Positions 1-14,794 of a stretch of 54,012 nt of DNA are shown in pieces. Source of the stretch: Elusimicrobiota bacterium (GTDB lineage Bacteria; Elusimicrobiota; Elusimicrobia; UBA1565; UBA9628); NCBI GenBank assembly GCA_016218575.1, contig JACRDN010000013.1:1-54012 (forward strand), in the 5' to 3' direction. The number at the start of each line of letters is the position of its first letter. The first letter of the stretch is position 1. Below the pieces are notes generated by a model. It had not been told where the DNA came from and did no database searches. It worked only from the letters and a program-made list of their open reading frames with translations. Made by a program: the position numbers and the translations under genes.

Positions 1-80
1 GGCTCCTCGGACTTGCCCCCCACGTGGGCGGCCTTGACCATGGTCAAGGCCGCCCACGTGGGGGGCAAGTCCGAGGAGCC
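1..80. repeat. Perfect 80-bp palindrome at the contig end
   Basis: Bases 1-40 are the exact reverse complement of bases 41-80, with no loop. A perfect palindrome exactly at the edge of the sequence is typical of a fold-back assembly or amplification artefact. The right half (41-80) reads into the first gene and is probably genuine. The left half (1-40) is then probably spurious. A real hairpin cannot be excluded. Confidence 0.9.
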
Positions 81-1374
81 CTTGGGCTTGGGCGTGTGGG
101 AAAGCGAGGGGAAGCTCTTCATCGAGATCGTGAACCGGGGCGCGCCGATTTGGCTCGGCTCGCGGGAGTCGGGAGGGATGAGTGCCGCGCGCTGGGAGAA
201 GTTCCACCAGGCCCTGCGCGGTGCCGACCGGGTCTCGCTTGAGAATTTCGGGCGCAAAGGCCAAAAAGTCGTCATAGAGATCAAATTGGGCTCCCGGGCC
301 GCGGCGAAGTCCCTGGCCGCCAGCGGGGGCTTGGCCGCGGCCGTGATCCCCGAGGGGGAGAAGATCGAGATCAGGCCCTTGAAGCCCGGGGAAGAGGGGG
401 CCTTGAGCCGCCTGTTTTACCTCGTCTATGGGTACGATTACGTCAACGAGCTTGTCTACTACCCCGAGAAACTCAAGGCCCTGGCCGAATCTGGGGACCT
501 CTTGTCCACGGTGGCGGCCCGGCCCAACGGTAGGCTCGTCGGGCACGTGGGCCTGGTGCGCAAGAGCAGGAATCCCCCGGTGTACGAGGCGGCCATGGGA
601 GTGGTGGACCCGGCCGCCAAGTCCCGCGGCCTTTTCTCCCAGCTTTTCGACAGGATCATGGAGACGGTGCGCGCGACTCCTATGCAGTACTGCCTCTTCG
701 ATTTCGTCACGAACCACGAGTACAGCCAGAGGCACGTGGCCAAGTTCCAGCCCTGCGAGCTGGCTCTTTTCATCGGCTGCCAGACCCGCAAGACCCAGGC
801 CAAGCTCGAGAGGATCGGCTTGGGGCCGGACCCGGAGGGCATGGACCGCTACAGCCTGCTCGTTTCGGCGATTCCCCGGGTGGCCCAGCCTTTCGGGCCC
901 GAGGTTGTTCTTCCGGAAAGCATCGGCGCGGCCTTCGGGTTCCTGCTCAAGCCATTCAACCTGCGTTGGTCGGTGTCCTCTCGCTTCGAGGCCATGCCCG
1001 AGGGGGGGCTTTGCCGGTCCCAATACCAGCCCCTGCAGTCCGCCGTGGCCTTCGACCTCGATCGTCCCGGCCGCGGGGCCTTGGACGGCCTTCTGGGTGA
1101 GTGGCGCGAGCTCTTGAGGAAGGGCTGCCAGTACGCGGCCGTGGAATTTCCCCTGGCTAGCCCTGGTCTTGGCATGCTTTGCGACATCCTCTCCTCCAAC
1201 GGCTTCTTCGCGGCGGGGTTCGTGCCCTACCGCTGCGGCGCGGAGCTGGGCTTCCGCTTTCAAGCCCTGGGCCCCACCCGGGTGGCCTTCGACAAGATCA
1301 AGGTGGCCTCCGAGACCGGGCGCAGGCTTCTGGAAATCGTCCGAAAGGAGTACGAGGCATGCGCGGTCCTATGA
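40..1374 (+). CDS. GHKL-ATPase-like / GNAT acyltransferase protein, 5' partial
   Basis: The open frame runs through the terminal palindrome, so the real start is probably upstream and missing; codons before about position 41 are suspect. Residues 1-90 resemble the C-terminal part of an RsbW/HATPase_c_2 domain: an 'IEIVNRGAPI' strand, then 'ENFGRKGQKVVIEIK'. From about residue 105 a GNAT-like acyltransferase region follows ('GHVGLV', 'GVVDPAAKSRGLFSQLF'), then a second GNAT-like half ending 'SNGFFAAGFVPYRCG'. The same two-half layout occurs in the genes at 6342 and 7331. It overlaps the luxE-like gene by 16 bp, so it belongs to that operon. Kinase-like plus acyltransferase is a family-level inference; the substrate is unknown. 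Confidence 0.65.
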   Translation: MVKAAHVGGKSEEPLGLGVWESEGKLFIEIVNRGAPIWLGSRESGGMSAARWEKFHQALRGADRVSLENFGRKGQKVVIEIKLGSRAAAKSLAASGGLAAAVIPEGEKIEIRPLKPGEEGALSRLFYLVYGYDYVNELVYYPEKLKALAESGDLLSTVAARPNGRLVGHVGLVRKSRNPPVYEAAMGVVDPAAKSRGLFSQLFDRIMETVRATPMQYCLFDFVTNHEYSQRHVAKFQPCELALFIGCQTRKTQAKLERIGLGPDPEGMDRYSLLVSAIPRVAQPFGPEVVLPESIGAAFGFLLKPFNLRWSVSSRFEAMPEGGLCRSQYQPLQSAVAFDLDRPGRGALDGLLGEWRELLRKGCQYAAVEFPLASPGLGMLCDILSSNGFFAAGFVPYRCGAELGFRFQALGPTRVAFDKIKVASETGRRLLEIVRKEYEACAVL

Positions 1375-2507
1375 ATTCATTTCGCAAGGCCGACGAGATA
1401 TGTCGGATATCGGACCCTCAGGATTGGACCGCGGAGAAATGCCGGCTGATGGTCGAGGCTTGCCGCGAGGCGGCCCTGTTTCACTTCGAGAAATGCCCCG
1501 AGATCGCGGCCCTGTACCGGCGCCGGGGCTTTAACCCGGAAACCTTGCGCCGCGAGGAGGACTTGGAGCGCATCCCGACCCTCGGGGTGAGCGCCATGAA
1601 GCGCTATCTTCTCACATCTCTCCCTCACGAGCAGGCCGTCCTCAAGCTGACCTCCTCGGGCACCCGCGGCCAAAAGACCCAATGCTGGCTCGACCAGGGA
1701 AGTCTTGACCGGGCTCAAGCCATGCTGGAGGGATTGTGGAGGCAAGAGGGTCTCGTTTCCGACGTTCCCGCCAATTATCTGATGTTCGTCTACGACCCCG
1801 AAGAGGCCAAGGACCTCGGCATCGCCTTCTCGGACAAGAACCAGCAGCGCTTCGCTCCGGTTCAGCAGTCTTTCTACGCCATCCGGAAAAGCCCGGATGG
1901 CGGTTGGGTGTTTAGAAGGAAGGATGTTTACTCTAAACTGCAGGAGTTCTCGAGCTTGAATACTCCAACGCGGATTTTCGGCATTCCAAGCTTCATCCAC
2001 GAGCTTTTGGAGGAGACGGACGTTCGCGTGCGCCTGCCCGCGGGGTCCTGGATGGTGACGGGCGGCGGCTGGAAGGCGGCTGAGGACAAGAAGGTCTCCC
2101 GCGGGCATTTCCGGGCTTTGGCTTCGGAGAGGCTCGGGCTTCCGATTGAGAATATCCGCGACGGCTACGGCATGGCCGAGCATGCGGCTCCGTATCTGGA
2201 GTGCGCCAGGCACCGCTTCCATGTTCCGGTCTACAACCGGGTCTTTGCCCGAGATCCGGTGACCATGGAGGCCTTGCCCGCGGGGCGAACCGGCCTCTTG
2301 GAGCTTGTCACTCCGTTCAACGCCATGATGCCCAACCTCGCCATTCTTTCCACGGATTTGGGCTTCCTCAACCGCGAGCCCTGCCCTTGCGGGGCCTCCT
2401 CCCCGACCTTCACCTTGGCCGGCAGGGGCGGCCTCACCAAGCACAAGGGCTGCGCCATTCATGCCGGGGAAATCGTGGCCCGGCGGGCGGCTGGAGCGAA
2501 AACATGA
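1359..2507 (+). CDS. luxE: LuxE-type acyl-protein synthetase (fatty acid reductase complex)
   Basis: This 382-aa protein matches LuxE in length and layout. LuxE activates a fatty acid as acyl-AMP and passes it through a C-terminal cysteine to the LuxC reductase. Visible features are 'LTSSGTRGQKTQ' (adenylate-forming glycine loop), 'MVTGGGWK', 'DGYGMAEHAAPY' and the C-terminal 'HKGCAIHAGE', whose Cys fits the LuxE acyl-carrier Cys. I chose ATG 1359 because GAAAGGAG lies 8 nt upstream; ATG 1371, which overlaps the previous stop as ATGA, is the alternative. The stop overlaps the next start as ATGA, so translation is probably coupled to the LuxC partner. No luxA or luxB is present. Confidence 0.88.
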   Translation: MRGPMNSFRKADEICRISDPQDWTAEKCRLMVEACREAALFHFEKCPEIAALYRRRGFNPETLRREEDLERIPTLGVSAMKRYLLTSLPHEQAVLKLTSSGTRGQKTQCWLDQGSLDRAQAMLEGLWRQEGLVSDVPANYLMFVYDPEEAKDLGIAFSDKNQQRFAPVQQSFYAIRKSPDGGWVFRRKDVYSKLQEFSSLNTPTRIFGIPSFIHELLEETDVRVRLPAGSWMVTGGGWKAAEDKKVSRGHFRALASERLGLPIENIRDGYGMAEHAAPYLECARHRFHVPVYNRVFARDPVTMEALPAGRTGLLELVTPFNAMMPNLAILSTDLGFLNREPCPCGASSPTFTLAGRGGLTKHKGCAIHAGEIVARRAAGAKT

Positions 2508-5101
2508 GCAAGAGCTATTTCTTCGGCGAATGGCGCAAGGGCGGCGAGCCCTTGACCGCGGAGGAGGCGGCCGAGCTGTGCCGCAAGGCCGCGGACCTGC
2601 GCCAGGCCGTGGGGCGTTATCCCCTGGACAAGGTCTTGAGGCTCTTGTCCAACGTCAGGGACAGATGGCGCGATCCCTCCTATCCGCGCCGGCTCAAGAT
2701 GGAGCGGGAGCTTCCCGCCCTCACCGGGTTTTCGCCCGACATGGTGCGCCTGGGCCTTGACGAGCTCTGCTGGGCCTTCGACCCCGAGGTCCTCCGCCGC
2801 AAAATGGACGCTGAGCTCGGAGGAACGCGGGACGGGACCTTGTCCTGGCGGCCCCTCGGGGTCCTCCTGCACGTGCTGGCGGGAAACGTCTTTGTCGGCG
2901 CGGCGGGCTCTTTGGTCGAGGGGCTCATCACCCGCAACGTGAACGTGCTCAAAATGTCCTCTTCGGAGACGGCCTTTCTTCCCGAGCTCGTGGAGTCCCT
3001 TGTGGAATGCGACGAGGAAGGATTCCTTTCCAAGGCCCTGGCCGTGGTTCAGTATTCCTCGGCCCAGGCTGACGTCATCGCGGAGTTTAAAAGATCGGTG
3101 GACGGTATCGTGGTCTGGGGAGGGGAGGAGGCGGTGAGGGGCTACCGCGACGGGCTTCCGGCCCGGACCAAGCTCATCCTTTACGGCCCCAAGCTCAGCG
3201 CGGCCGTGTGCACGAGCCGCGGCCTGGAGGCGGACCTCGAAGGGGCCGCGCGCAAGCTCGCTCGGGAGATGTCCATCTGGGACCAGAACGCCTGCACCGC
3301 GCCCCAGGCCTGCTACGTCCAGGGCCTTACGGGCGCGCGTAAATTGGCCGAGGCCCTCCCGCGGGCCCTGGAGGAGGAGGCCAAAATCCTGCCCCCGGGA
3401 GGCCTCGAGCTCAACCAAGCCGCCGAGATTCGCAAGATCCGCGGAGTCGCCGAGATCGCCGAGGCGCGTGGGGAGGGCCTTTTAAAGGAATCTCCCCAGG
3501 GCCTCGACTGGACCGTGGTCTTGGACCAGGACCAAGCCTTGGACCCATCGCCCCTGCACCGCACCTTGCGCATTATCGTTTTCCGGGGCCTTCCGGAGGT
3601 GCTGGACCGGCTGGCGGAGCTGCGAGGTTATGTCCAGACCGTGGGTCTGGCCTGCGCCGAGGATGAGTCCGCTGAGCTCTGCCGCGCCTTGGAGGATGTC
3701 GGGGTCTTGAGAATGTTGCCCTTGGGAGAGATGTCCCAGGGGGAGGTCGAGGACCCGCATGACGGCAGCCGGGCCCTTCCGCAATTCATGCGCCTGGTCA
3801 TCCGCAGGCCGCGTCTCAAGGCCCCGGAGCCGTTTGAACGTCTTTCTCGGGAGGAAGGGCGAGAGCTCATCAATGAAAGGCTGCGGATACTCCTCGACCA
3901 TGCCCGGCGCTCCCCCTTCTACGCGCGCAGGCTTACGGGCCTCGAGATCGACTCGCTCGAGGATTTGCCCAAGATCCCGGTTCTTACCCGCCATGAGATG
4001 GAGGCCGGCATGCCGCCCCAAGGCGAGGCCTTGGCCACGGGCCGGTGGCGGGGGGGCTACGTCACCCGCAGCGGAGGCTCCACCGGAGTTCCGAAATTTT
4101 CCGTCTACGACGGCCCCGATTGGGAGCGCTTGGTGTCCCATGCCGCTGGAATTTTTCGGGCCTTGGGGCTCGAGCCCCGGGACCGCCTCGCCAATTTCAT
4201 GCTGGCGGGAGACCTTTACGGCAGCTTCGTCTCCTTCGACCACATCAACGCCCGCCTGGGGCTGGCCACCTTCGCCTTCGCGGGAAGCTCCGAGCCCAAG
4301 ATATTCGCGGAGGTGTGGAGGAAGTTCTCAATCAACGCCGCCCAGGGAATTCCAAGCCAGCTCATCCCCTTCCTTCGCCAGGCCAAGGCCCTGGAGCCGG
4401 CCCTCGCCTTGGAGAAGGTGGTTTACGGCGGCTCGTCCCTCGCCCCGTCCGACCGGGAGTGGCTTGAAAGAGAGCTCAAGGTCCGGCGAATCTCCTCCGT
4501 CATCGGGGCCAATGACGGCGGGCAGTTCGCTTTTCAATGCGAGTTCCAGCGCGGTGGGCTGCATCACTCCGTGGACGACTTCAACTACCTGGAGGTCGCG
4601 GACCCGGAGGGCCGCCCCGTTCCCGAGGGAGAAACCGGGCAGATACTCATCACGAGCCTCCTCAAGCACGCCTACCCCCTCATCCGCTACGCCGTGGGAG
4701 ACCAGGCCCGTATGACCATCGAGCCTTGCCCCTGCGGGCGCCGTGCCCGAGTGCTCGAATATCTGGGGCGCGCCGACGACATCGTGGTTGTCGGCATGAT
4801 GAATCTGCGCTTCAGGGACATGGCCGAGGCCTTGCGTGATTTCCCCGTCTCGGCGCTCCAGCTCTCGGCTCGGAACGACGGGGGCGGGGAATGGGTGACG
4901 ATTAGGGCGGAGTCCTCGGAAAGCGGGCCCGCCTTGGCCGGACGCATGCGCGAGGCTTTGCTCGGCCGGGTGGAGAAGCTCAAGGAACGATTGGCCGAGG
5001 GCTTCTTGAAGGATGTCCGCGTCGAGCTCCACCGCCCGGGCTCCCTTGCCCGCAATGCCCGCAGCGGAAAGATAAAAGAGATATTGGACGAGAGAGCTTA
5101 G
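2504..5101 (+). CDS. luxC: LuxC acyl-CoA reductase fused to PaaK-type adenylate-forming domain
   Basis: The 865-aa protein has two enzymes in one chain. Residues 1 to about 430 are LuxC, an NADPH-dependent acyl reductase making aldehydes: 'RPLGVLLHVLAGNVF', 'NVNVLKMSSSE' and the catalytic motif 'WDQNACTAPQ' with Cys264. Residues from about 445 to the end are phenylacetate-CoA ligase-like: 'RSPFYARRL' at the start, the AMP-binding loop 'RSGGSTGVPKF' near 517, 'YAVGDQARM', the Cys pair 'CPCGRRARV', and 'GRADDIVVVGMMN' near the end. The start at 2504 overlaps the luxE stop. Free-standing LuxC is about 450-480 aa, so the fusion is unusual. I infer that the second domain activates an acid for reduction, alongside or instead of LuxE. 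Confidence 0.88.
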   Translation: MSKSYFFGEWRKGGEPLTAEEAAELCRKAADLRQAVGRYPLDKVLRLLSNVRDRWRDPSYPRRLKMERELPALTGFSPDMVRLGLDELCWAFDPEVLRRKMDAELGGTRDGTLSWRPLGVLLHVLAGNVFVGAAGSLVEGLITRNVNVLKMSSSETAFLPELVESLVECDEEGFLSKALAVVQYSSAQADVIAEFKRSVDGIVVWGGEEAVRGYRDGLPARTKLILYGPKLSAAVCTSRGLEADLEGAARKLAREMSIWDQNACTAPQACYVQGLTGARKLAEALPRALEEEAKILPPGGLELNQAAEIRKIRGVAEIAEARGEGLLKESPQGLDWTVVLDQDQALDPSPLHRTLRIIVFRGLPEVLDRLAELRGYVQTVGLACAEDESAELCRALEDVGVLRMLPLGEMSQGEVEDPHDGSRALPQFMRLVIRRPRLKAPEPFERLSREEGRELINERLRILLDHARRSPFYARRLTGLEIDSLEDLPKIPVLTRHEMEAGMPPQGEALATGRWRGGYVTRSGGSTGVPKFSVYDGPDWERLVSHAAGIFRALGLEPRDRLANFMLAGDLYGSFVSFDHINARLGLATFAFAGSSEPKIFAEVWRKFSINAAQGIPSQLIPFLRQAKALEPALALEKVVYGGSSLAPSDREWLERELKVRRISSVIGANDGGQFAFQCEFQRGGLHHSVDDFNYLEVADPEGRPVPEGETGQILITSLLKHAYPLIRYAVGDQARMTIEPCPCGRRARVLEYLGRADDIVVVGMMNLRFRDMAEALRDFPVSALQLSARNDGGGEWVTIRAESSESGPALAGRMREALLGRVEKLKERLAEGFLKDVRVELHRPGSLARNARSGKIKEILDERA

Positions 5102-5110
5102 CGCCTTGCG

Positions 5111-6355
5111 ATGCTGATTCTCAGAAATCGCGCCGTGGCTCTCATCTGGACCGGACAGCTCCTGAGCCAGGCCGGCACGCGCCTCTATCAGCTCGCCTTG
5201 GCCTGGTGGCTCGTCTCGCGGGGGGGCCTTGACGCCGGCAAGACGATAGGCCTCTTCCTGGCGGCGGGAGCCTTGCCGCCCCTTCTCTTCGTTAAGCCCA
5301 TCGGCGCTTGGGTGGACCGCCGCGACAGCGTCAGGACCTTGATGGCGAGCGATGTGTTTTCCTTCATGGTCGTGTGCTTCGTGGCTCTCGCTATGCAATT
5401 TGATAAAACTAATCTTCTCTTCCTTTGCGTAATGGGGTTTCTGCTAGCCCTTTCCCAGGCTTTCTTCGACCCCGCCCTCAATAAGGCCGTCGCGGCCGCG
5501 GCGGCCAAGGAGGACTTGGAGGAGGCCGTGGCACTGCAGTCATCCACGCAATCCCTGGCGAGCTTCGGGGGGGCCATGGCCGGAGCCCTGCTGATAGACA
5601 GGCTGGGAATCACGGCTCTTACATGGCTCAACGCCGCGAGCTTCCTCGTCTCGGCGCTGTGCAATGGAGCGCTTTACAAGAACCGAGGAATGCAGAAAGC
5701 AAGCGCTGGTTCTATCGCCGGCCAGCGCGGGCCCGGCGCTGGCCGGGAAGGTTGGGCTATGCTGGAGGGGCATAACCTCATCAAAAAGTCCCTACTGGGC
5801 TTCGGCCTTGCCAACTTCTTCATGACCCCAATTTTGGTCATCCTTCCTTTATATGTCGGCCGGAGCCTGGGCTCGGGGGCCGGCGTCCTGGCCGGGCTCG
5901 AGGCCGGGCTTTGGCTCGGCATTCTCTGCGGAACGGCGGCTTCCAAATGGTGTCATTTCAGCGAAAATATTCCTAAACTAGGGTCAGCGTGCCTATTGCT
6001 CATGGGTTTGTGCCTGTTCGTTCCCGGGCTGATCATGGACCGCTTCCTGCACGCGGCCCTTCTTTTCATCGCGGGCGGAGCCTTGGGAATCAACAACGTG
6101 AAGTTCGTGGCCATGTTTCAGCGGCAAGTCCCCGAGGAGTTCAAGGGGCGGTTCTTCGCCCTCATGCAGGCGGTGTTGAGCTTCACCTTTCCGGCGGCGT
6201 ATTTCGCGTTCGGTTTTCTGGCCGACTGGCTGAGCCCTCCGGCCGCCTGCCTGATCCAGGGCGCCGGGGTCATGCTTCTCTCTCTGTATTTCCTGATCTT
6301 GGCCCGCAAGGAGGGGGGAGCGGCAAGCCTCGGCGCCATCTATGAACGAGCTTGA
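5111..6355 (+). CDS. MFS transporter
   Basis: This 414-aa integral membrane protein starts 9 bp after the LuxC fusion. It has about 12 hydrophobic segments and an MFS motif A-like loop after TM2 ('KPIGAWVDRRDSVRTLM'). Its layout is that of the MFS_3 / enterobactin-exporter-like class ('ALIWTGQLLSQAGTRLYQLALAWWL'). The neighbours suggest export of the product of the acyl-reductase pathway; the cargo cannot be read from sequence. It overlaps the next gene by 14 bp. Confidence 0.88.
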   Translation: MLILRNRAVALIWTGQLLSQAGTRLYQLALAWWLVSRGGLDAGKTIGLFLAAGALPPLLFVKPIGAWVDRRDSVRTLMASDVFSFMVVCFVALAMQFDKTNLLFLCVMGFLLALSQAFFDPALNKAVAAAAAKEDLEEAVALQSSTQSLASFGGAMAGALLIDRLGITALTWLNAASFLVSALCNGALYKNRGMQKASAGSIAGQRGPGAGREGWAMLEGHNLIKKSLLGFGLANFFMTPILVILPLYVGRSLGSGAGVLAGLEAGLWLGILCGTAASKWCHFSENIPKLGSACLLLMGLCLFVPGLIMDRFLHAALLFIAGGALGINNVKFVAMFQRQVPEEFKGRFFALMQAVLSFTFPAAYFAFGFLADWLSPPAACLIQGAGVMLLSLYFLILARKEGGAASLGAIYERA

Positions 6356-7334
6356 GCTTCTTTCTTCGGAGGATGAGGGAGTCCAGGCCTCCCTATCCTT
6401 GGCTTTGGAGCCCGAGCAGGGCCTGGCCAAAATACAGAAAATGCTCGCTTCTGGCCCCGAGCCCGCGCAGAAGGCCCGGCTCAAGGCCTTGATTTCCGAG
6501 GCCCTGGATAAGCTCCGCGGCCGGGGCGGGATCGACCTTGTCTATAACACGACCAGGACTTTGACCCCGGAGCAGCAGGAGCTCACCCTTGAGCTCGGCT
6601 TCAAGGTCCTGGGCATATTCCCGAGCGCCCGGGCGGCGGACTCCCGGAAAATCAATGGTCTTGCCGTCTTCTACGCGCCGGAGGCCTTGAAAAAGCGCTA
6701 CAGCCCGTTTCCCCTCCATCCCGCCATCTTCCCTTTTTTCGAGCTCGCGCGCGCTCAGTGCGGCTTGGAGCCCCTGCCCCTGGCGGCGCGCCCGGCGCTG
6801 GCGGCCGAGGCCCCGGCGCTGCCCCCTCTCGAGATGATCGAGGCTCCCCGCTTCGTGGCGGAGCGCTTCCGCCGCCTGAAGGCGCGGCGCAGCCTTTCGG
6901 TCAACTTCTACCCCTTCCAGGTTCCCAACGTCCTGTTCACGAGCCCCGACCAGTCCGTTGAGGTGTTCGCCTGGCTGCACAGGCCCATGGGATTTGCCAC
7001 GATCGTGGCCGAGCACTTGACCGTTCCCGTAAGCCCCGTGGAGCTTTACCGCCGCGTGGTGGAGGCCCTGCGATCCTCCCAGGCCGGCTACATCGAGGTC
7101 ATCAACGACGCGGCCGACGCGGCCGGCATCGAATGCATTCTCCAGGCGGGGTTCGTCCCGTGCGGCTACTTCCCGGCGCTCAAGAAGCACGTGGACCTGC
7201 GCCGGGACTACGTGGTGTTCGCCCGGACCTTTGAGCCTTTTTCCTGCGACGAGGCTTGTCTCAGCGAGCCCTACGCCCGCCTCCTGGCGGAATTCCGCCG
7301 GGCCCAGGCGAGCCCCGCCGAGGCGGGATTATGA
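6342..7334 (+). CDS. Bimodular GNAT-like protein with a reduced N-terminal half
   Basis: This 330-aa protein is a paralogue of the next gene. They share 'T.RT..P..Q.L...LGF..LGIFP', 'FYPFQVPN'/'FFPFHEPN', 'AGFVPCGYFPALK'/'ARFLPSAYYPAM' and 'RRDYVVFARTF'/'GRDYIVFSKTF'. The first ~80 residues are short and lack the acetyl-CoA pyrophosphate loop seen in the paralogue ('RPEFRGFGLTEKAM'). It may therefore be a non-catalytic or partner subunit. Start ATG 6342 lies inside the end of the MFS gene; the stop overlaps the next ATG as ATGA. Assignment to the GNAT fold is by similarity to the neighbour. Confidence 0.65.
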   Translation: MNELELLSSEDEGVQASLSLALEPEQGLAKIQKMLASGPEPAQKARLKALISEALDKLRGRGGIDLVYNTTRTLTPEQQELTLELGFKVLGIFPSARAADSRKINGLAVFYAPEALKKRYSPFPLHPAIFPFFELARAQCGLEPLPLAARPALAAEAPALPPLEMIEAPRFVAERFRRLKARRSLSVNFYPFQVPNVLFTSPDQSVEVFAWLHRPMGFATIVAEHLTVPVSPVELYRRVVEALRSSQAGYIEVINDAADAAGIECILQAGFVPCGYFPALKKHVDLRRDYVVFARTFEPFSCDEACLSEPYARLLAEFRRAQASPAEAGL

Positions 7335-8518
7335 GCACTGCGGCTCCGCCCCGGCCCGAGCTGCAGTGCTGGCAGTCCGTGAGCCGAGGCAGAAGGGCCC
7401 TGATTCGCCTGGCCACACCGGCGGACGCCTCGCGCATACGCGGCTTGTACCGCGAGATATACCACGGCCGCTATCCTCTCAGCATCATTTACGATCTTCA
7501 CGAGACGGTCGAGTCCCTCCACAAGGATAACTACTTCTGGTTCGTGAGCGAGGTCAACCGGCAGATCGTGGGCTCGGTGATTTTCTGCCTCGATCCTGAG
7601 ATACAGTTGGCGAAGGTCTTCGGCGGGGTGGTGCGCCCCGAATTCCGAGGCTTTGGCCTCACCGAGAAGGCCATGTCCCTGGGCCTCAGGCACCTGGTGG
7701 AAGAAACCCAGTGCGCCCAGAGCGTCTATGCCACCGCGCGCACGGTGTCTCCCGCTCCGCAGAAGCTTCTGCGCAAGCTCGGCTTCAGGGAGCTCGGCAT
7801 TTTCCCCAACGTGCGCAAGATAGACAACTACGAGACCCATTGCCTGACCGCCTATTTCAAGGAGGGGGCCTTGGGCCGGCGCATCGCCCGGCCCCGCCTG
7901 CCGCTTCTTCTAAAGCCCTTCTACGACATCGTGAGGCGCTCGACCGGGATCGAGGACGCGCAATGGCGCGATATCCGCATTTCTCCGCCGTCGCCGTGGG
8001 GGGAGGCCGAGCTGGGCTTCGAGCTCATCGAGGCCAAGAACTTCATTCTCTCCCGCTGGAACAAGCTCAAGGCCGAGGACAAGCTTCGCATGCAGTTCTT
8101 CCCTTTCCATGAGCCCAACCTCATGCTCGTCACCGAGGACCAAGCCGCGGAGATATACATCCATTACTCCAAGCCCGACCACCACGCCGTCATCATCGGC
8201 GGGCACGAGAGCGTGCCGGATCTTGCCCGCCTTCTCAACGCCGTCGGCCTCTTCCTCGAGGAGCACGGGGTGCGCTACTTGGAGCTCCTGGCCGATGCCT
8301 ACCATCCCGGGATCATCCAGAAGGTCATGGAGGCGCGGTTTCTGCCCAGCGCCTATTACCCGGCCATGCGCTGGAAGCACGGCAAGGGCCGCGACTACAT
8401 CGTCTTCAGCAAGACCTTCACCATCCTCGACTTCAAGCACATCGCCGCCCGCGGCCTCTTTAGCGAGTACCTGCGCGAGTACTTCCGCCTCTGGAAGTCT
8501 TTGTACATAGATTTCTAA
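7331..8518 (+). CDS. GNAT-family acyltransferase (bimodular)
   Basis: The 395-aa protein begins with a GNAT domain: 'IRLATPADASRIRGLYREIY', 'GSVIFCL', then the acyl-CoA-binding segment 'VVRPEFRGFGLTEKAMSLGL' and 'KLLRKLGFRELGIFP'. The C-terminal half (from about residue 230) is a second, diverged GNAT-like module shared with the genes at 40 and 6342. ATG 7331 overlaps the previous stop. It is the last gene of the cluster; a 45-bp palindrome follows directly. The acceptor is unknown; context suggests acylation of a product or carrier in the LuxC/LuxE pathway. Confidence 0.78.
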   Translation: MSTAAPPRPELQCWQSVSRGRRALIRLATPADASRIRGLYREIYHGRYPLSIIYDLHETVESLHKDNYFWFVSEVNRQIVGSVIFCLDPEIQLAKVFGGVVRPEFRGFGLTEKAMSLGLRHLVEETQCAQSVYATARTVSPAPQKLLRKLGFRELGIFPNVRKIDNYETHCLTAYFKEGALGRRIARPRLPLLLKPFYDIVRRSTGIEDAQWRDIRISPPSPWGEAELGFELIEAKNFILSRWNKLKAEDKLRMQFFPFHEPNLMLVTEDQAAEIYIHYSKPDHHAVIIGGHESVPDLARLLNAVGLFLEEHGVRYLELLADAYHPGIIQKVMEARFLPSAYYPAMRWKHGKGRDYIVFSKTFTILDFKHIAARGLFSEYLREYFRLWKSLYIDF

Positions 8519-8519
8519 G

Positions 8520-8564
8520 CCAGTTATCCACAAAACTTTCCTGGAAAGTTTTGTGGATAACTGG
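8520..8564. repeat. Palindromic repeat with two inverted DnaA-box sequences (copy 1)
   Basis: A perfect 22-bp inverted repeat with a 1-nt loop begins 2 bp after the GNAT stop codon. It contains TTATCCACA at 8524-8532 and its complement TGTGGATAA at 8552-8560, an exact match to the DnaA-box consensus. There is no T-run, so it is not a classical intrinsic terminator. Related copies are at 24455 and 49401. Confidence 0.9.
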
Positions 8565-8620
8565 CGATGGCAGCTCCACCCGCTTGCGGCGTCGGCTCTA
8601 GGTATTAAGTCCCGATAACG

Positions 8621-8700: not shown

Positions 8701-10278
8701 ATGGTCAACACGCGCAAGTCGCTCGCGGCCGTGACCTTCGCGGCGTTTTTCGCCGGTCCCGCCGGGGCGGTGAGAAAGGCGATGCCCGCCGTGCCGGCGG
8801 AGGTCTTGGCTCTGCGGCTGGCCCAGCCGATCTCCGCAATCGGCGCCGTCAGCCTCACGAATCCGCGGCCGCTGATTCCTGGGAGGCCGGTTTTGAGGCG
8901 CCTGAACGGGATGAGCCAATTTTCCGTCCAGCTTTCCATTTCGCGCGATCCCTCGGAGGAATCGTCCGCCGTTGGCGGAACTCTGGTGTTCGACAATTTG
9001 AGCGATATCCCTCAAGAAGATGTGGACAAGCTCCGGCTTCACCCCAGACCCGCGCCCCCCGTGGAGGCTCCGAAAGCGTGGGAAGAGGCGGACAGGGGCG
9101 ACCGCCACGCCTACGCCAGGCTTGCGGCGCCTCAGCATGATGCGCAGCAAAGGAAGGCGGTCGCAGAGAACTTGACCTTCCGCAGCTTGCTGCGGGAGCC
9201 GGCCGAAGAATTCCTGGACAGTGAGTTCCTGTTTGGCGATGTCTACTGGTCCGGCTGGGACCTGCTGGGCTTGCTGTGGACTCCCGAGGCCCATCCCTTG
9301 GATAGGACGATTTCTTCCCGCGAGCTCAAGATGCGCTACGGCATCGAGCGCTCCGCGCTTTCCAAGGTTCTGGAAGAAAACGCTATTCCGACCTATTTTT
9401 ACGATAAGTGGCTCGATAAAACCGAGTCCCTTGGCATCATCTATAGACATACGGACATGAATCGTTCGGAGGTCTTTTACGGCATCCCCCAGGCGGTTTA
9501 TGACGCGTTCGATCTAGTCCAAGAGGAGTTCTCGCATCATGAATTGCGGGCCAAGCAGGCCAAGGGATTCTTGGAGAGAAAGCAGCGCTTTAACGACATT
9601 GAATGGTCCGGTCGGGCCTTGCTCAACCTGGTGTGGACTTCCGACGCTTTAGTCGTCGAGAAGGGCGAGAAGGCTTCCGCCTCCGATGTCAAGAACTCCT
9701 ACGGGGTCGGACGCGATGTTCTGACCGGGCTATTGGAGGGACATGGAATCCCCGCTGTTTTTTATGATGATTGGCTCAATGAGGCTGAAAGATTGGGAAT
9801 AGTCTTCAGGTTGGACATTACTTCCCTGGAGCATTCGCGGCGCTATTACGGCGTACCGCAAGGAGTTCGAGAGTACCTCGCATCCTTGGACGATGCCCAA
9901 TCCGGCGCGCATGCCCTGACGCCGTTAGGGGCTTCCTTGGTGGACCTGTCGAAGGATCCCTTGGTCGAAAGCGACGCTGAGCTTGCGGAGTATGTTGCTG
10001 GAATCGCGCGAATCGCCCTGGAGCATTCCTTGGTCCCCCAAAATGCTCCCTCCAAGAAGTTGCTGGACGCGGTCAGTGGACTGGAGTACGACCATTCGTC
10101 GTTGGCTTCGAACTTGATCAATTTGATCGAATCCGTCGCCGCGGGTTACGAGGGCCGGCCGGTTCTCAAGAAAATCCTGAGGGTCGCCGAGGAGTTCTTA
10201 TCCTCCGGACTGATGTCCACCGAGGAGCAGGAGATGGTCCGCCGCGGCATCGAATCGGTCCAGTCCGTTGAGGGATAG
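8701..10278 (+). CDS. Secreted protein with two ~100-aa tandem repeats
   Basis: I do not recognise a family. The 525-aa protein has an N-terminal signal peptide (positively charged start, then 'AAVTFAAFFAGPAGA'). Two homologous modules occupy about residues 171-272 and 290-396. They share 'WSG..LL.L.WT', a stretch resembling a helix-turn-helix ('SSRELKMRYGIERSALSK' / 'ASDVKNSYGVGRDVLTG'), 'IP..FYD.WL...E.LGI..R' and 'YYGVPQ'. A helical C-terminal tail follows. A helix-turn-helix-like fold in an exported protein is odd, so the resemblance may be only structural. It is a single-gene unit that converges on the baeRF gene. Confidence 0.75.
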   Translation: MVNTRKSLAAVTFAAFFAGPAGAVRKAMPAVPAEVLALRLAQPISAIGAVSLTNPRPLIPGRPVLRRLNGMSQFSVQLSISRDPSEESSAVGGTLVFDNLSDIPQEDVDKLRLHPRPAPPVEAPKAWEEADRGDRHAYARLAAPQHDAQQRKAVAENLTFRSLLREPAEEFLDSEFLFGDVYWSGWDLLGLLWTPEAHPLDRTISSRELKMRYGIERSALSKVLEENAIPTYFYDKWLDKTESLGIIYRHTDMNRSEVFYGIPQAVYDAFDLVQEEFSHHELRAKQAKGFLERKQRFNDIEWSGRALLNLVWTSDALVVEKGEKASASDVKNSYGVGRDVLTGLLEGHGIPAVFYDDWLNEAERLGIVFRLDITSLEHSRRYYGVPQGVREYLASLDDAQSGAHALTPLGASLVDLSKDPLVESDAELAEYVAGIARIALEHSLVPQNAPSKKLLDAVSGLEYDHSSLASNLINLIESVAAGYEGRPVLKKILRVAEEFLSSGLMSTEEQEMVRRGIESVQSVEG

Positions 10279-11471: not shown

Positions 11472-13094
11472 ATGTCCAGGGAAGGGGCCGTCGACACTCC
11501 CGCCATAGCAACCCGCGTAAACCGAGACAGTTCCGACTTCGCGGAAAACCTCCGCTACCACGAGACCCTGCTCGAGGACTTGAAGGCGCGGCTGGCCGAG
11601 GCTGGTCGGGGAGGCCCCGATGGCGCCGTGGCCCTGCACCGGGGGCGCGGCAAGCTTACGGCCCGGGAGCGCGTGGAGCGCCTGGTGGACCCGGGCTCGT
11701 TCCTTCTTGAGCTTTCCCCCATGGCCGCTTTCGGCATGCATAATAATGAGGTGCCGGGGGCAGGCATCATCACGGCCTTGGGGGTGGTCTCGGGCAGACT
11801 ATGCGTGATCGCGGCCAACGACGCCACGGTCAAGGGCGGCACCTATTACCCAGAGACCATCAAGAAGCACCTGCGCGCCCAGGAGATCGCCCTGCAGAAC
11901 CGCCTTCCCTGTCTCTACCTCGTGGACTCGGGCGGGGTCTTCCTGCCCAAACAGGCCGACGTTTTCCCGGACAAGGAGCATTTCGGGCGCATCTTCTACA
12001 ACCAGGCCCTCATGTCCTCTTTGGGGATACCGCAGATCTCGGTGGTCATGGGAATGTGCACGGCGGGCGGGGCCTACGTTCCCGCCATGTCGGACGAGTG
12101 CGTGATCGTGCGCGGCAACGGGACCATCTACTTGGGCGGCCCGCCTCTGGTCAAGGCGGCCACTGGCGAGGAGTCCACCCCCGAGGAGTTGGGCGGGGGG
12201 GAGATGCACTCCCGCGTGTCGGGAGTCACCGACCATCTGGCCGACAACGACGAGGAGGCCCTGCGCCTCTGCCGCTCGATCGTGGCCAACCTCAACGCCC
12301 GCCCCTTCAACCGTGGAGAGGGCGAGGAGCCCCTTTACCCTGCCTCGGACCTCTACGGCCTGGTGCATCGGGATTTGCGCCGCCCCTGCGACGTAGCGGA
12401 AATCGTGGCGCGCCTGGTCGACGGCAGCCGCTTCCACTTCTTCAAGTCCCTGTACGGCCAGACCATGACCTGCGGCTTCGGCAGGATCATGGGCCGGCCG
12501 GTGGGGATATTGGGCAACCGCGGGGTGCTTTTCTCCGAGGCGGCCTTGAAGGGCGCGCACTTTATCGAGCTCTGCTCCCAGCGCAAGATCCCCATCGTAT
12601 TCCTGCAGAACATCACGGGCTTCATGGTGGGCAAGGACTACGAGCAGGGGGGGATCATCAAGCACGGGGCCAAGCTCGTCCAGGCCGTCTCCACCGCGGC
12701 GGTTCCCAAGGTCACGGTGGTGACCGGCTCCTCCAACGGCGCTGGCAATTACGCCATGTGCGGCCGGGCCTACAACGGCCGTTTTCTCTTCACATGGCCT
12801 AACTCCCGGGTCTCGGTCATGGGTGCCGACCAGGCGGCCCAGGTCATGACCATCATCAAGCGCGAGCAATTGAAGCGTCAGGACAAGGAGCTTTCCTCCG
12901 AGGACGAGGAGAAAATCGCAGCCCCCATCCGCGCCCAATACGAGTCCGAGGGCCATCCCTACTACGGCACGGCCAGGCTTTGGGACGACGGGATCATCGA
13001 GCCGGCCCACACTCGGCAAATCCTGGCGTTTTGCCTGGAGGCCGCGTCCTACGCCCCGGAGGAGTCGCCGCGCTACCCCGTTTTCCGCATGTGA
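11472..13094 (+). CDS. liuB: Methylcrotonyl-CoA carboxylase beta subunit (carboxyltransferase)
   Basis: At 540 aa this matches MCC beta, which moves CO2 from biotin to 3-methylcrotonyl-CoA in leucine breakdown. Crotonase-fold landmarks: '[19 protein letters not shown]', '[12 protein letters not shown]', '[14 protein letters not shown]'-like '[15 protein letters not shown]', '[11 protein letters not shown]', '[17 protein letters not shown]', '[16 protein letters not shown]', and C-terminal '[11 protein letters not shown]' and '[12 protein letters not shown]'. Propionyl-CoA carboxylase beta is the main alternative, but the downstream hydratase and HMG-CoA lyase favour MCC. The biotin-carrying alpha subunit is not in the window. 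The stop overlaps the next start (TGATG). Confidence 0.9.
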
Positions 13095-13888
13095 TGGAGT
13101 ACCGCCATATCGAAGTCTCTAGCCACCCTCGACGCGTCGGCGTCTCGGTGGTCGCCCTCAAGCGCCCGGAAGTCCGCAACGCCATGGACGACAACACCTT
13201 GCGCGAGCTCTCCCGCGCCTTCGGCGAGCTGTCGAGGCGCAAGGACCTGCGCGCCGTGGTCGTGCGCGGCGAGGGGCCCGACTTTTGCGCCGGAGCCGAC
13301 ATCGCCTGGATGCGCCGGGCCGGGACCTTGAAGCCCGCGCAAAGCCGCAAGGACGCTCGGCTCCTCGTGGACATGTGCCTGGCCGTGGAAGGCTGCCCCG
13401 TTCCCGTCATCGCCGCGGTCCAGGGAGGGGTGTACGGGGGGGGGCTGGGCCTGGCCGCCTCCTGCGACATCGTGGTGGCGGCAGACAACTCTAAGATGTG
13501 CTTCTCCGAGTGCCGGTTGGGGATCATCCCGGCCGTGATCTCGTGCTTTGTCATCCCCAAGATCGGCGAGGTCGCGGCCCGGCGTTATTACCTCACGGCC
13601 GAGGCCTTCGGCGCGGAAAAAGCCCGAGAGCTTGGCATCGTCCACGAGGTCGTCCCGGAGTTCGCCTTGGAGGAGAGGGTCGAGGCCTTGCTCGACTCGA
13701 TTTTAAAGAACGGTCCGCAAGCGGTGAGACAGGCGAAAGCCATGCTCCACAAATTCCCGGCCCTCCCCTTTGAGAAGCGCGTAACTCTTGTCCTTTCCAC
13801 CTTGACGCGCCTGCGCTCCTCTCCGGAGGGCCAGGAGGGCCTTTCGGCCTTCCTCGAAAAACGTCCTCCGGCTTGGACCTTGCCCTAA
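13094..13888 (+). CDS. liuC: Enoyl-CoA hydratase family, likely methylglutaconyl-CoA hydratase
   Basis: The 264-aa crotonase-fold protein would hydrate 3-methylglutaconyl-CoA to HMG-CoA. It shows 'LKRPEVRNAMDD', the CoA-binding/oxyanion segment 'GPDFCAGADIAWMRR', 'GGVYGGGLGLAASCDIVVA' and 'FSECRLGIIPAVIS', whose Glu matches a crotonase catalytic Glu. ATG 13094 overlaps the carboxylase stop, and the next gene begins immediately after this stop. Placement between MCC beta and HMG-CoA lyase supports the specific function; sequence alone only says crotonase family. Confidence 0.85.
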   Translation: MEYRHIEVSSHPRRVGVSVVALKRPEVRNAMDDNTLRELSRAFGELSRRKDLRAVVVRGEGPDFCAGADIAWMRRAGTLKPAQSRKDARLLVDMCLAVEGCPVPVIAAVQGGVYGGGLGLAASCDIVVAADNSKMCFSECRLGIIPAVISCFVIPKIGEVAARRYYLTAEAFGAEKARELGIVHEVVPEFALEERVEALLDSILKNGPQAVRQAKAMLHKFPALPFEKRVTLVLSTLTRLRSSPEGQEGLSAFLEKRPPAWTLP

Positions 13889-14794
13889 ATGCCCGACGCC
13901 CAAACCCTGCCCCTTCCCCGCCTGGTGGAAGTCGGGCCGCGGGACGGCCTGCAGAACGAGAAGGCTTCTGTTCCCCTGGCCGCCAAGGCCGCCTTCATAG
14001 ACGCTCTTTCGGAATCGGGCCTCATGGAAATCGAGGCCGGGGCCTTCGTCTCGCCCAAGGCCGTGCCCCAGATGGCCGACTCGGAGGCGGTGTTTTCGGC
14101 CATCAAGCGCAAAAAGGGCGTCATTTACTCGGCTTTGGTGCCCAACGAGGAGGGCTTGGACCGCGCCTTGGCCGCCAAGGCCGACAAGATCGCGGTATTC
14201 ACCGCGGCCTCCGAGGCCTTCAACCGGCGCAACATCAATGCGAGCGTCGCCGAGTCCATGGAAAGATTCAAGCCCGTGGTGGAGCGCGCCAAAAAATCCG
14301 GACTTGCGGTCAGGGCCTACGTTTCGACCGCCTTCCACTGTCCCTACGAGGGTTCGATCGCGGCCGAGAAAGTCTGGCCCGTGGCCGAGACCTTGCTCGC
14401 CATGGGCGTGGACGAGCTTTCCATAGGAGACACCATCGGCAAGGCCTCGCCCTTCGAGGTGCGCGCACTCCTGAACCTTCTCCTGAAAAAAATCGCTCCG
14501 GAGCGGATTTTCCTCCATTTCCACGACACTTACGGCATGGCGGTGGCAAACGCCTTGACCGCCTGGCAGGAGTACAAGATCTCGGGTTTTGATTCCTCGG
14601 CCGGAGGCCTGGGAGGCTGTCCCTACGCCCCCGGAGCGAGCGGCAACGTCGCCACCGAGGACTTGCTTTTCGCCTTCTCCTCCTGCCGGGCCGCCATGGG
14701 TCCGGACCTAGGCAAGGTGAGGGCCGCGGCCCGGGCGCTCGAACCCCATCTGGGGCGCGGCCTCTCCTCCCATCTCGGCAAGATCAACTCCTGA
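13889..14794 (+). CDS. mvaB: Hydroxymethylglutaryl-CoA lyase
   Basis: The 301-aa TIM-barrel enzyme cleaves HMG-CoA to acetoacetate and acetyl-CoA, the last step of leucine degradation. Diagnostic motifs: 'EVGPRDGLQNEK' at the N-terminus (metal and substrate binding), 'SIGDTIGKASP', 'HFHDTYGMAVAN' (metal-binding His pair) and 'GGLGGCPYAPGASGN' with the catalytic Cys. The length is normal. It abuts the hydratase stop with no gap and ends the operon. Confidence 0.93.
   Translation: MPDAQTLPLPRLVEVGPRDGLQNEKASVPLAAKAAFIDALSESGLMEIEAGAFVSPKAVPQMADSEAVFSAIKRKKGVIYSALVPNEEGLDRALAAKADKIAVFTAASEAFNRRNINASVAESMERFKPVVERAKKSGLAVRAYVSTAFHCPYEGSIAAEKVWPVAETLLAMGVDELSIGDTIGKASPFEVRALLNLLLKKIAPERIFLHFHDTYGMAVANALTAWQEYKISGFDSSAGGLGGCPYAPGASGNVATEDLLFAFSSCRAAMGPDLGKVRAAARALEPHLGRGLSSHLGKINS

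Follow-up and report, generated by a model that had tools for sequence, protein, structure and literature searches.

What would a bacterium make with LuxE and LuxC, the partners of the fatty acid reductase of luminous bacteria, when it carries no luciferase? The question is raised by an operon at the start of a contig (JACRDN010000013.1, here C13) of an Elusimicrobiota bacterium. The window analysed here is the entire contig, 54,012 nucleotides long, and the operon occupies positions 1-8518 of its plus strand. LuxE forms a protein-bound acyl thioester, which LuxC reduces to an aldehyde. The operon also encodes PaaK ligases, which make acyl-CoA, GNATs, which acylate amines with the acyl part of acyl-CoA, and an MFS protein; those of the TIGR00900/Mef/EntS kind export small molecules. 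To our knowledge, the secondary metabolism of Elusimicrobiota, Bdellovibrionota and Riflebacteria is little characterised.

We hypothesise that the operon makes an aldehyde-type small molecule, independently of NRPS and PKS enzymes, and that this product is exported. The reactions, substrates and product are read from the protein families, and we give this reading a probability of roughly 0.45.

An operon that very probably runs across two contigs

The original prediction was of a co-directional operon of six genes. Their positions and tight spacing stand (Table 1), with ATGA overlaps at the junctions, except that one pair of neighbours overlaps by 14 bp and another is 9 bp apart, and with a third-position GC that is coding-like; however, the first gene is cut by the contig end and two more genes lie upstream. 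Since the same gene order is kept in dozens of genomes, a chance arrangement is excluded.

The contig begins with a perfect palindrome, and its natural 20-nt core is also the end of a second contig, C18 (46,705 b), the last 23 bases of which are repeated at positions 28-50 of the window. Since C18 ends in this core, C18 and C13 very probably adjoin within the first gene (w1), the join having been deduced rather than sequenced. When C18 and C13 are joined at the 20-nt palindrome, w1 becomes a single open frame of 497 aa which, by eye, matches the intact gene of relatives along its length, and as the join gives this full-length frame, what flanks the natural core within the 80-nt palindrome most likely arose during assembly. 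Upstream of w1 are genes for a PaaK-like ligase and for X, a protein-glutaminase-like protein, and intact relatives (loci L026/L042 and L030/L062) carry the equivalents of both. These two genes, the RsbW-like domain of w1 and the wide distribution of the gene set had been overlooked in the earlier gene list.

Table 1. Features of the operon; positions refer to the window unless a C18 locus is named.
Feature	Position	Strand	Remark
Perfect 80-nt palindrome	1..80	n/a	probable assembly artefact around natural 20-nt palindrome (31-50)
X, protein-glutaminase-like, 326 aa	6254-7234 of C18 locus L022		signal-peptide-like start; same operon
PaaK-like ligase, 439 aa	7231-8550 of C18 locus L022		same operon
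w1, 3' part	51..1374	+	C13 part of gene; end of RsbW-like domain, then two GNAT domains
LuxE, acyl-protein synthetase family	1371..2507	+	C-terminal acyl-Cys conserved
LuxC (acyl reductase)-PaaK (acyl ligase) fusion	2504..5101	+	catalytic residues conserved
MFS exporter	5111..6355	+	TIGR00900 / MFS_3 type
G2, relative of G3	6342..7334	+	GNAT1 lacks its first half; may be non-catalytic
G3, predicted tandem GNAT acyltransferase	7331..8518	+

The stop codon of G3 is followed, at 8519-8565, by a near-perfect palindrome, each arm of which contains the DnaA-box consensus TTATCCACA. One arm has 35 matches in the genome at no more than 2 mismatches, several of them as inverted pairs (0 for a reversed-pattern control), and the element is a dispersed palindromic repeat. 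Downstream of the operon are a 525-aa open reading frame with no Pfam match (8701-10278) and then, by eye, acyl-CoA carboxylase-, enoyl-CoA hydratase- and HMG-CoA lyase-like genes (11472-14794).

No luciferase-family gene found in the genome

Across the whole genome, which is 97% complete, there was no match to PF00296, the luciferase family. C18 upstream of the join has no luxAB; the genes there encode the PaaK ligase and X and, farther upstream, one protein with a FecR domain and another that is TPR/porin-like. No LuxD-like match was found among the operon genes. The predicted absence of luxA and luxB is thus borne out both genome-wide and in the upstream genes, and a luciferase just beyond the contig start is ruled out by the C18 join together with the genome-wide search. 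The PF00296 result and the non-lux upstream genes also support the view that acid activation and reduction are here dedicated to a purpose without luciferase. No ACP, NRPS, PKS or glycosyltransferase was seen in the operon. A reading as anti-phage defence was considered and dropped, since none of 10 proteins matched a PADLOC model.

Distribution of the gene set

Scanning genome contigs yielded 122 relatives, the best 80 of which were kept; their titles name Elusimicrobiota, Bdellovibrionota, Riflebacteria, Wallbacteria, Armatimonadota, Chloroflexota, UBP9 and others. Within these 80, LuxC-PaaK is preceded by LuxE in 71 of the 73 loci with room for it, a positive outcome for a test named beforehand, the search for LuxE beside LuxC-PaaK fusions across genomes. 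A GNAT of the G3, G2 or w1 families is nearby in 59 of 63 loci. Across phyla, the pair is found again and again in linkage with GNAT and MFS genes, so the objection that they might never be linked fails. Among 97 relatives, the G3 family and LuxC-PaaK were both present in 23, G3 alone in 3, LuxC-PaaK alone in 0 and neither in 71 (Fisher p 2e-19, a value that ignores relatedness and uses a LuxC-PaaK column hand-assigned from matches).

Two arrangements stand out among the best 80 of the 122 relatives. Type A, that of the window, runs X-PaaK-w1-LuxE-LuxC/PaaK-MFS-G2(-G3) and forms one 23-row group (SH-aLRT 100) in which Elusimicrobiota, Bdellovibrionota and Riflebacteria are mixed; this mixing suggests spread by transfer, on a quick tree and with bins that can be contaminated. 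Type B, the trio G3-LuxE-LuxC/PaaK, makes up most other Elusimicrobiota loci. No linked MFS exporter was seen at the type B trios, and export is therefore not universal. The chromosomal surroundings of the trio are conserved, and its conserved neighbours, considered as pathway genes, were set aside because they look like stable chromosomal context instead. Some related loci have other genes inserted within the cluster (DUF362, NicO, DNA methylase, peptidase S9, AMP-ligase); these share no theme, gave no hint of the pathway and were also set aside.

Streptomyces plasmids carry PaaK-MFS-G3-LuxE-LuxC/PaaK as one cluster, and X and the RsbW-like domain are absent both from these clusters and from the type B trios. 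A variant cluster, LuxE-LuxC/PaaK-PaaK-GNAT, is found beside recombinase and toxin-antitoxin genes on the Salmonella enterica plasmid CP054717.1 (L125:3927-9685), which is typed as conjugative; a search of E. coli genomes brought up no close DNA match to this cluster. LuxC/LuxE pairs on Pantoea and Azospirillum plasmids are without linked GNATs of the G3, G2 or w1 families. As the gene set recurs in distant phyla, Streptomyces included, an exported small molecule is the most likely product.

Apart from these clusters, a Burkholderia stagnalis plasmid (L128:3056-10539) has a PaaK-like gene beside genes for 5-aminolevulinate synthase, a TauD-type dioxygenase, ketoacyl synthase III, a weakly ATP-grasp-like protein and an MFS protein, possibly another small-molecule cluster.

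LuxE and the LuxC-PaaK fusion

Pfam, NCBIfam and PDB sequence matches agree on the LuxE, LuxC, PaaK, MFS and GNAT identities that had been proposed from the letters alone. LuxE scores 106 bits in Pfam (cut-off 24.9) and is also matched by PDB 7xc6_E; all of 20 sequences keep its C-terminal Cys (C360 in alignment numbering; KGCA in the window), and the motif is present in 76 of 77 loci, the exception (L068) having AGCA. LuxC scores 260 bits (cut-off 21). The AMP-binding score of the PaaK part, 29.6 bits, is slightly below the cut-off of 29.9, and its assignment is clear from the NCBIfam and PDB matches. All of 21 LuxC-PaaK sequences keep Cys264 (alignment numbering), PHDG and the C-terminal GK unchanged, and their SGGS.G.PK loop is nearly invariant. 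The equivalog models are not reached (80.2 bits against a cut-off of 550 for the NCBI LuxE model, 108.4 against 750 for NCBI LuxC and 91 against 646 for PaaK).

Known LuxCE reduces fatty acids, and the pair here could belong to a lipid or envelope pathway that reduces long-chain fatty acids to the fatty aldehyde or alcohol from which ether lipids, wax esters or lipid-modified glycans are built, with the GNATs acylating that lipid. LuxC/LuxE genes do occur in flagellin-glycan islands, for which a liposugar has been proposed (PMC7874193, PMC4875605), and the conserved chromosomal setting of the type B trio, without exporter, would be consistent with such a role. However, glycosyltransferase, flagellin or lipid-synthesis genes are not linked, the MFS of type A and Streptomyces is of the drug/siderophore-export type and two extra PaaK-type ligases would be superfluous; we regard this explanation as unlikely.

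GNAT proteins, the RsbW-like domain and the MFS protein

The Acetyltransf_1 score in the operon is 29.9 bits. G3 (predicted structure with pLDDT 86 and pTM 0.87) is predicted, from the order of its secondary structure, to consist of two consecutive GNAT domains. Among the 50 matches listed, the first domain (GNAT1) is most like ArsN/phosphinothricin and N-alpha acetyltransferases, enzymes that modify the amino groups of amino acids or peptides, and no tandem-GNAT structure appears. Of the three related acyltransferases originally described, w1 and G3 share GNAT1 (hhalign 96.3%) and are both predicted tandem GNATs, but G2 is missing the first half of GNAT1, has no Pfam match and is possibly non-catalytic. 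The operon MFS scores 95 bits for MFS_1, with further matches to three exporter models, TIGR00900, Mef and EntS.

The N-terminal domain of w1 matches RsbW both by profile (E 1.3e-7) and by Foldseek (target TM 0.88), w1 relatives at L068 and L108 match HATPase_c_2, and the fold is of the RsbW/SpoIIAB anti-sigma kinase type. In the predicted structure two GNAT-like domains follow, with a packing that is unsure because the overall pTM is only 0.63. The gene first placed at position 40 does have GNAT content, but it had been truncated by the contig end, and the full w1 reads RsbW-like, GNAT, GNAT. By eye (alignment A4), the ATP-binding N-box Glu/Asn is seen in L108 and mostly lost in type A.

Such a fusion, next to a LuxE that is by name an acyl-protein synthetase, might indicate a regulatory or protein-acylation system in which RsbW-GNAT and LuxE modify proteins and no metabolite is made. 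We think this very improbable, given the apparent loss of the ATP-binding residues from most type A members, the absence of the RsbW-like domain from type B trios and Streptomyces clusters, and the lack, among the linked genes, of any recognisable sigma factor or anti-anti-sigma gene.

The secreted glutaminase-like protein

By inspection, the N-terminus of X is a signal-peptide-like stretch. X matches the protein glutaminase 8z3i (profile E 2e-5) and, weakly but repeatedly, PF18626, and one Cys, one His and one Asp in it are invariant. A papain-like secreted protein that retains this set could be the target, decoy or processing enzyme of a leupeptin-like inhibitor, an N-acylated short peptide or amino-acid aldehyde acting against Cys/Ser proteases; the leup cluster yields a peptide aldehyde and adjoins a transporter (PMC11480411, PMC8283571). 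A peptide ligase is, however, missing from the operon and X is absent from the type B and Streptomyces clusters, and we consider an inhibitor of this kind improbable.

A proposed pathway

Gene content, catalytic residues, linkage and conservation across phyla are observed; the order of the steps and their substrates we infer. For an exported aldehyde-type product, the pathway might proceed as follows: 1) PaaK-type ligases would adenylate carboxylic acids and convert them to CoA thioesters; 2) the tandem GNATs would use these thioesters to acylate an amine, perhaps an amino acid; 3) LuxE would adenylate the resulting carboxylate and hold the thioester on its C-terminal Cys; 4) LuxC, with NAD(P)H, would reduce the LuxE-bound thioester to an aldehyde, giving an N-acyl-amino-aldehyde-type product; and, 5) the MFS protein would export this product. 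X and the RsbW-like domain may be accessory, in processing, protection or complex assembly.

Counting for an exported metabolite are the conserved LuxE acyl-Cys, LuxC Cys and PaaK motifs, the co-occurrence of the GNAT with LuxC-PaaK in the 97 relatives, the single conserved cluster on Streptomyces plasmids, an operon with no visible ACP, NRPS, PKS or glycosyltransferase, the likely exporter type of the MFS as judged from the models it matches, and the resemblance of GNAT1 to acetyltransferases of amino acid or peptide amino groups. Against it count the type B trios without a linked MFS, the absence of an amino-acid ligase and the marginal Pfam score of PaaK, as well as the possibility that LuxE and LuxC act on nothing more unusual than a fatty acid.

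More tentatively, the gene set may represent an undescribed class of natural-product pathway, in at least 8 bacterial phyla, in which a tandem GNAT/LuxE/LuxC/PaaK core makes acylated amino-aldehydes without NRPS or PKS, with the RsbW-GNAT fusion and a secreted glutaminase-like enzyme recruited in Elusimicrobiota and Bdellovibrionota. We found no description of the LuxE-LuxC/PaaK-GNAT combination in the open-access literature, the scope of our search, which yielded flagellin islands, biofuel reviews and papers on luminescence instead. A compact operon with conserved catalytic residues, common to Streptomyces plasmids and in variant form to a Salmonella plasmid, offers a testable route to a new metabolite class, and would extend LuxC/LuxE acid-reduction chemistry past light production and flagellar glycans.

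Comparison with known systems

The leupABCD genes and their transporter in Klebsiella and Photorhabdus form a small non-NRPS aldehyde pathway (PMC11480411, PMC8283571), and the operon may work like it, a likeness drawn from the descriptions in those papers and not from protein homology. Outside luminescence, luxC and luxE have been described near an AMP-dependent synthetase in flagellin glycosylation islands of Aeromonas and Enterobacteriaceae (PMC7874193, PMC4875605). These islands are alike in having the pair without luminescence; unlike them, the operon and its immediate upstream genes include no glycosyltransferase, pseudaminic-acid or flagellar genes. The PaaK-type phenylacetate-CoA ligases (PDB 4r1l, 2y4o) share domain architecture and motifs with the operon PaaK, which falls far under their equivalog cut-off and has one copy fused to LuxC. 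The LuxC-LuxE fatty acid reductase of luminous bacteria (PDB 7xc6) has in common with the operon both enzyme families, their adjacent genes and both catalytic Cys residues, although the operon proteins fall far under the LuxE and LuxC equivalog cut-offs and luciferase is lacking. It is the fusion of LuxC to PaaK, the linked tandem GNATs, the second PaaK and the MFS exporter that distinguish this operon family from the known LuxC/LuxE pairs.
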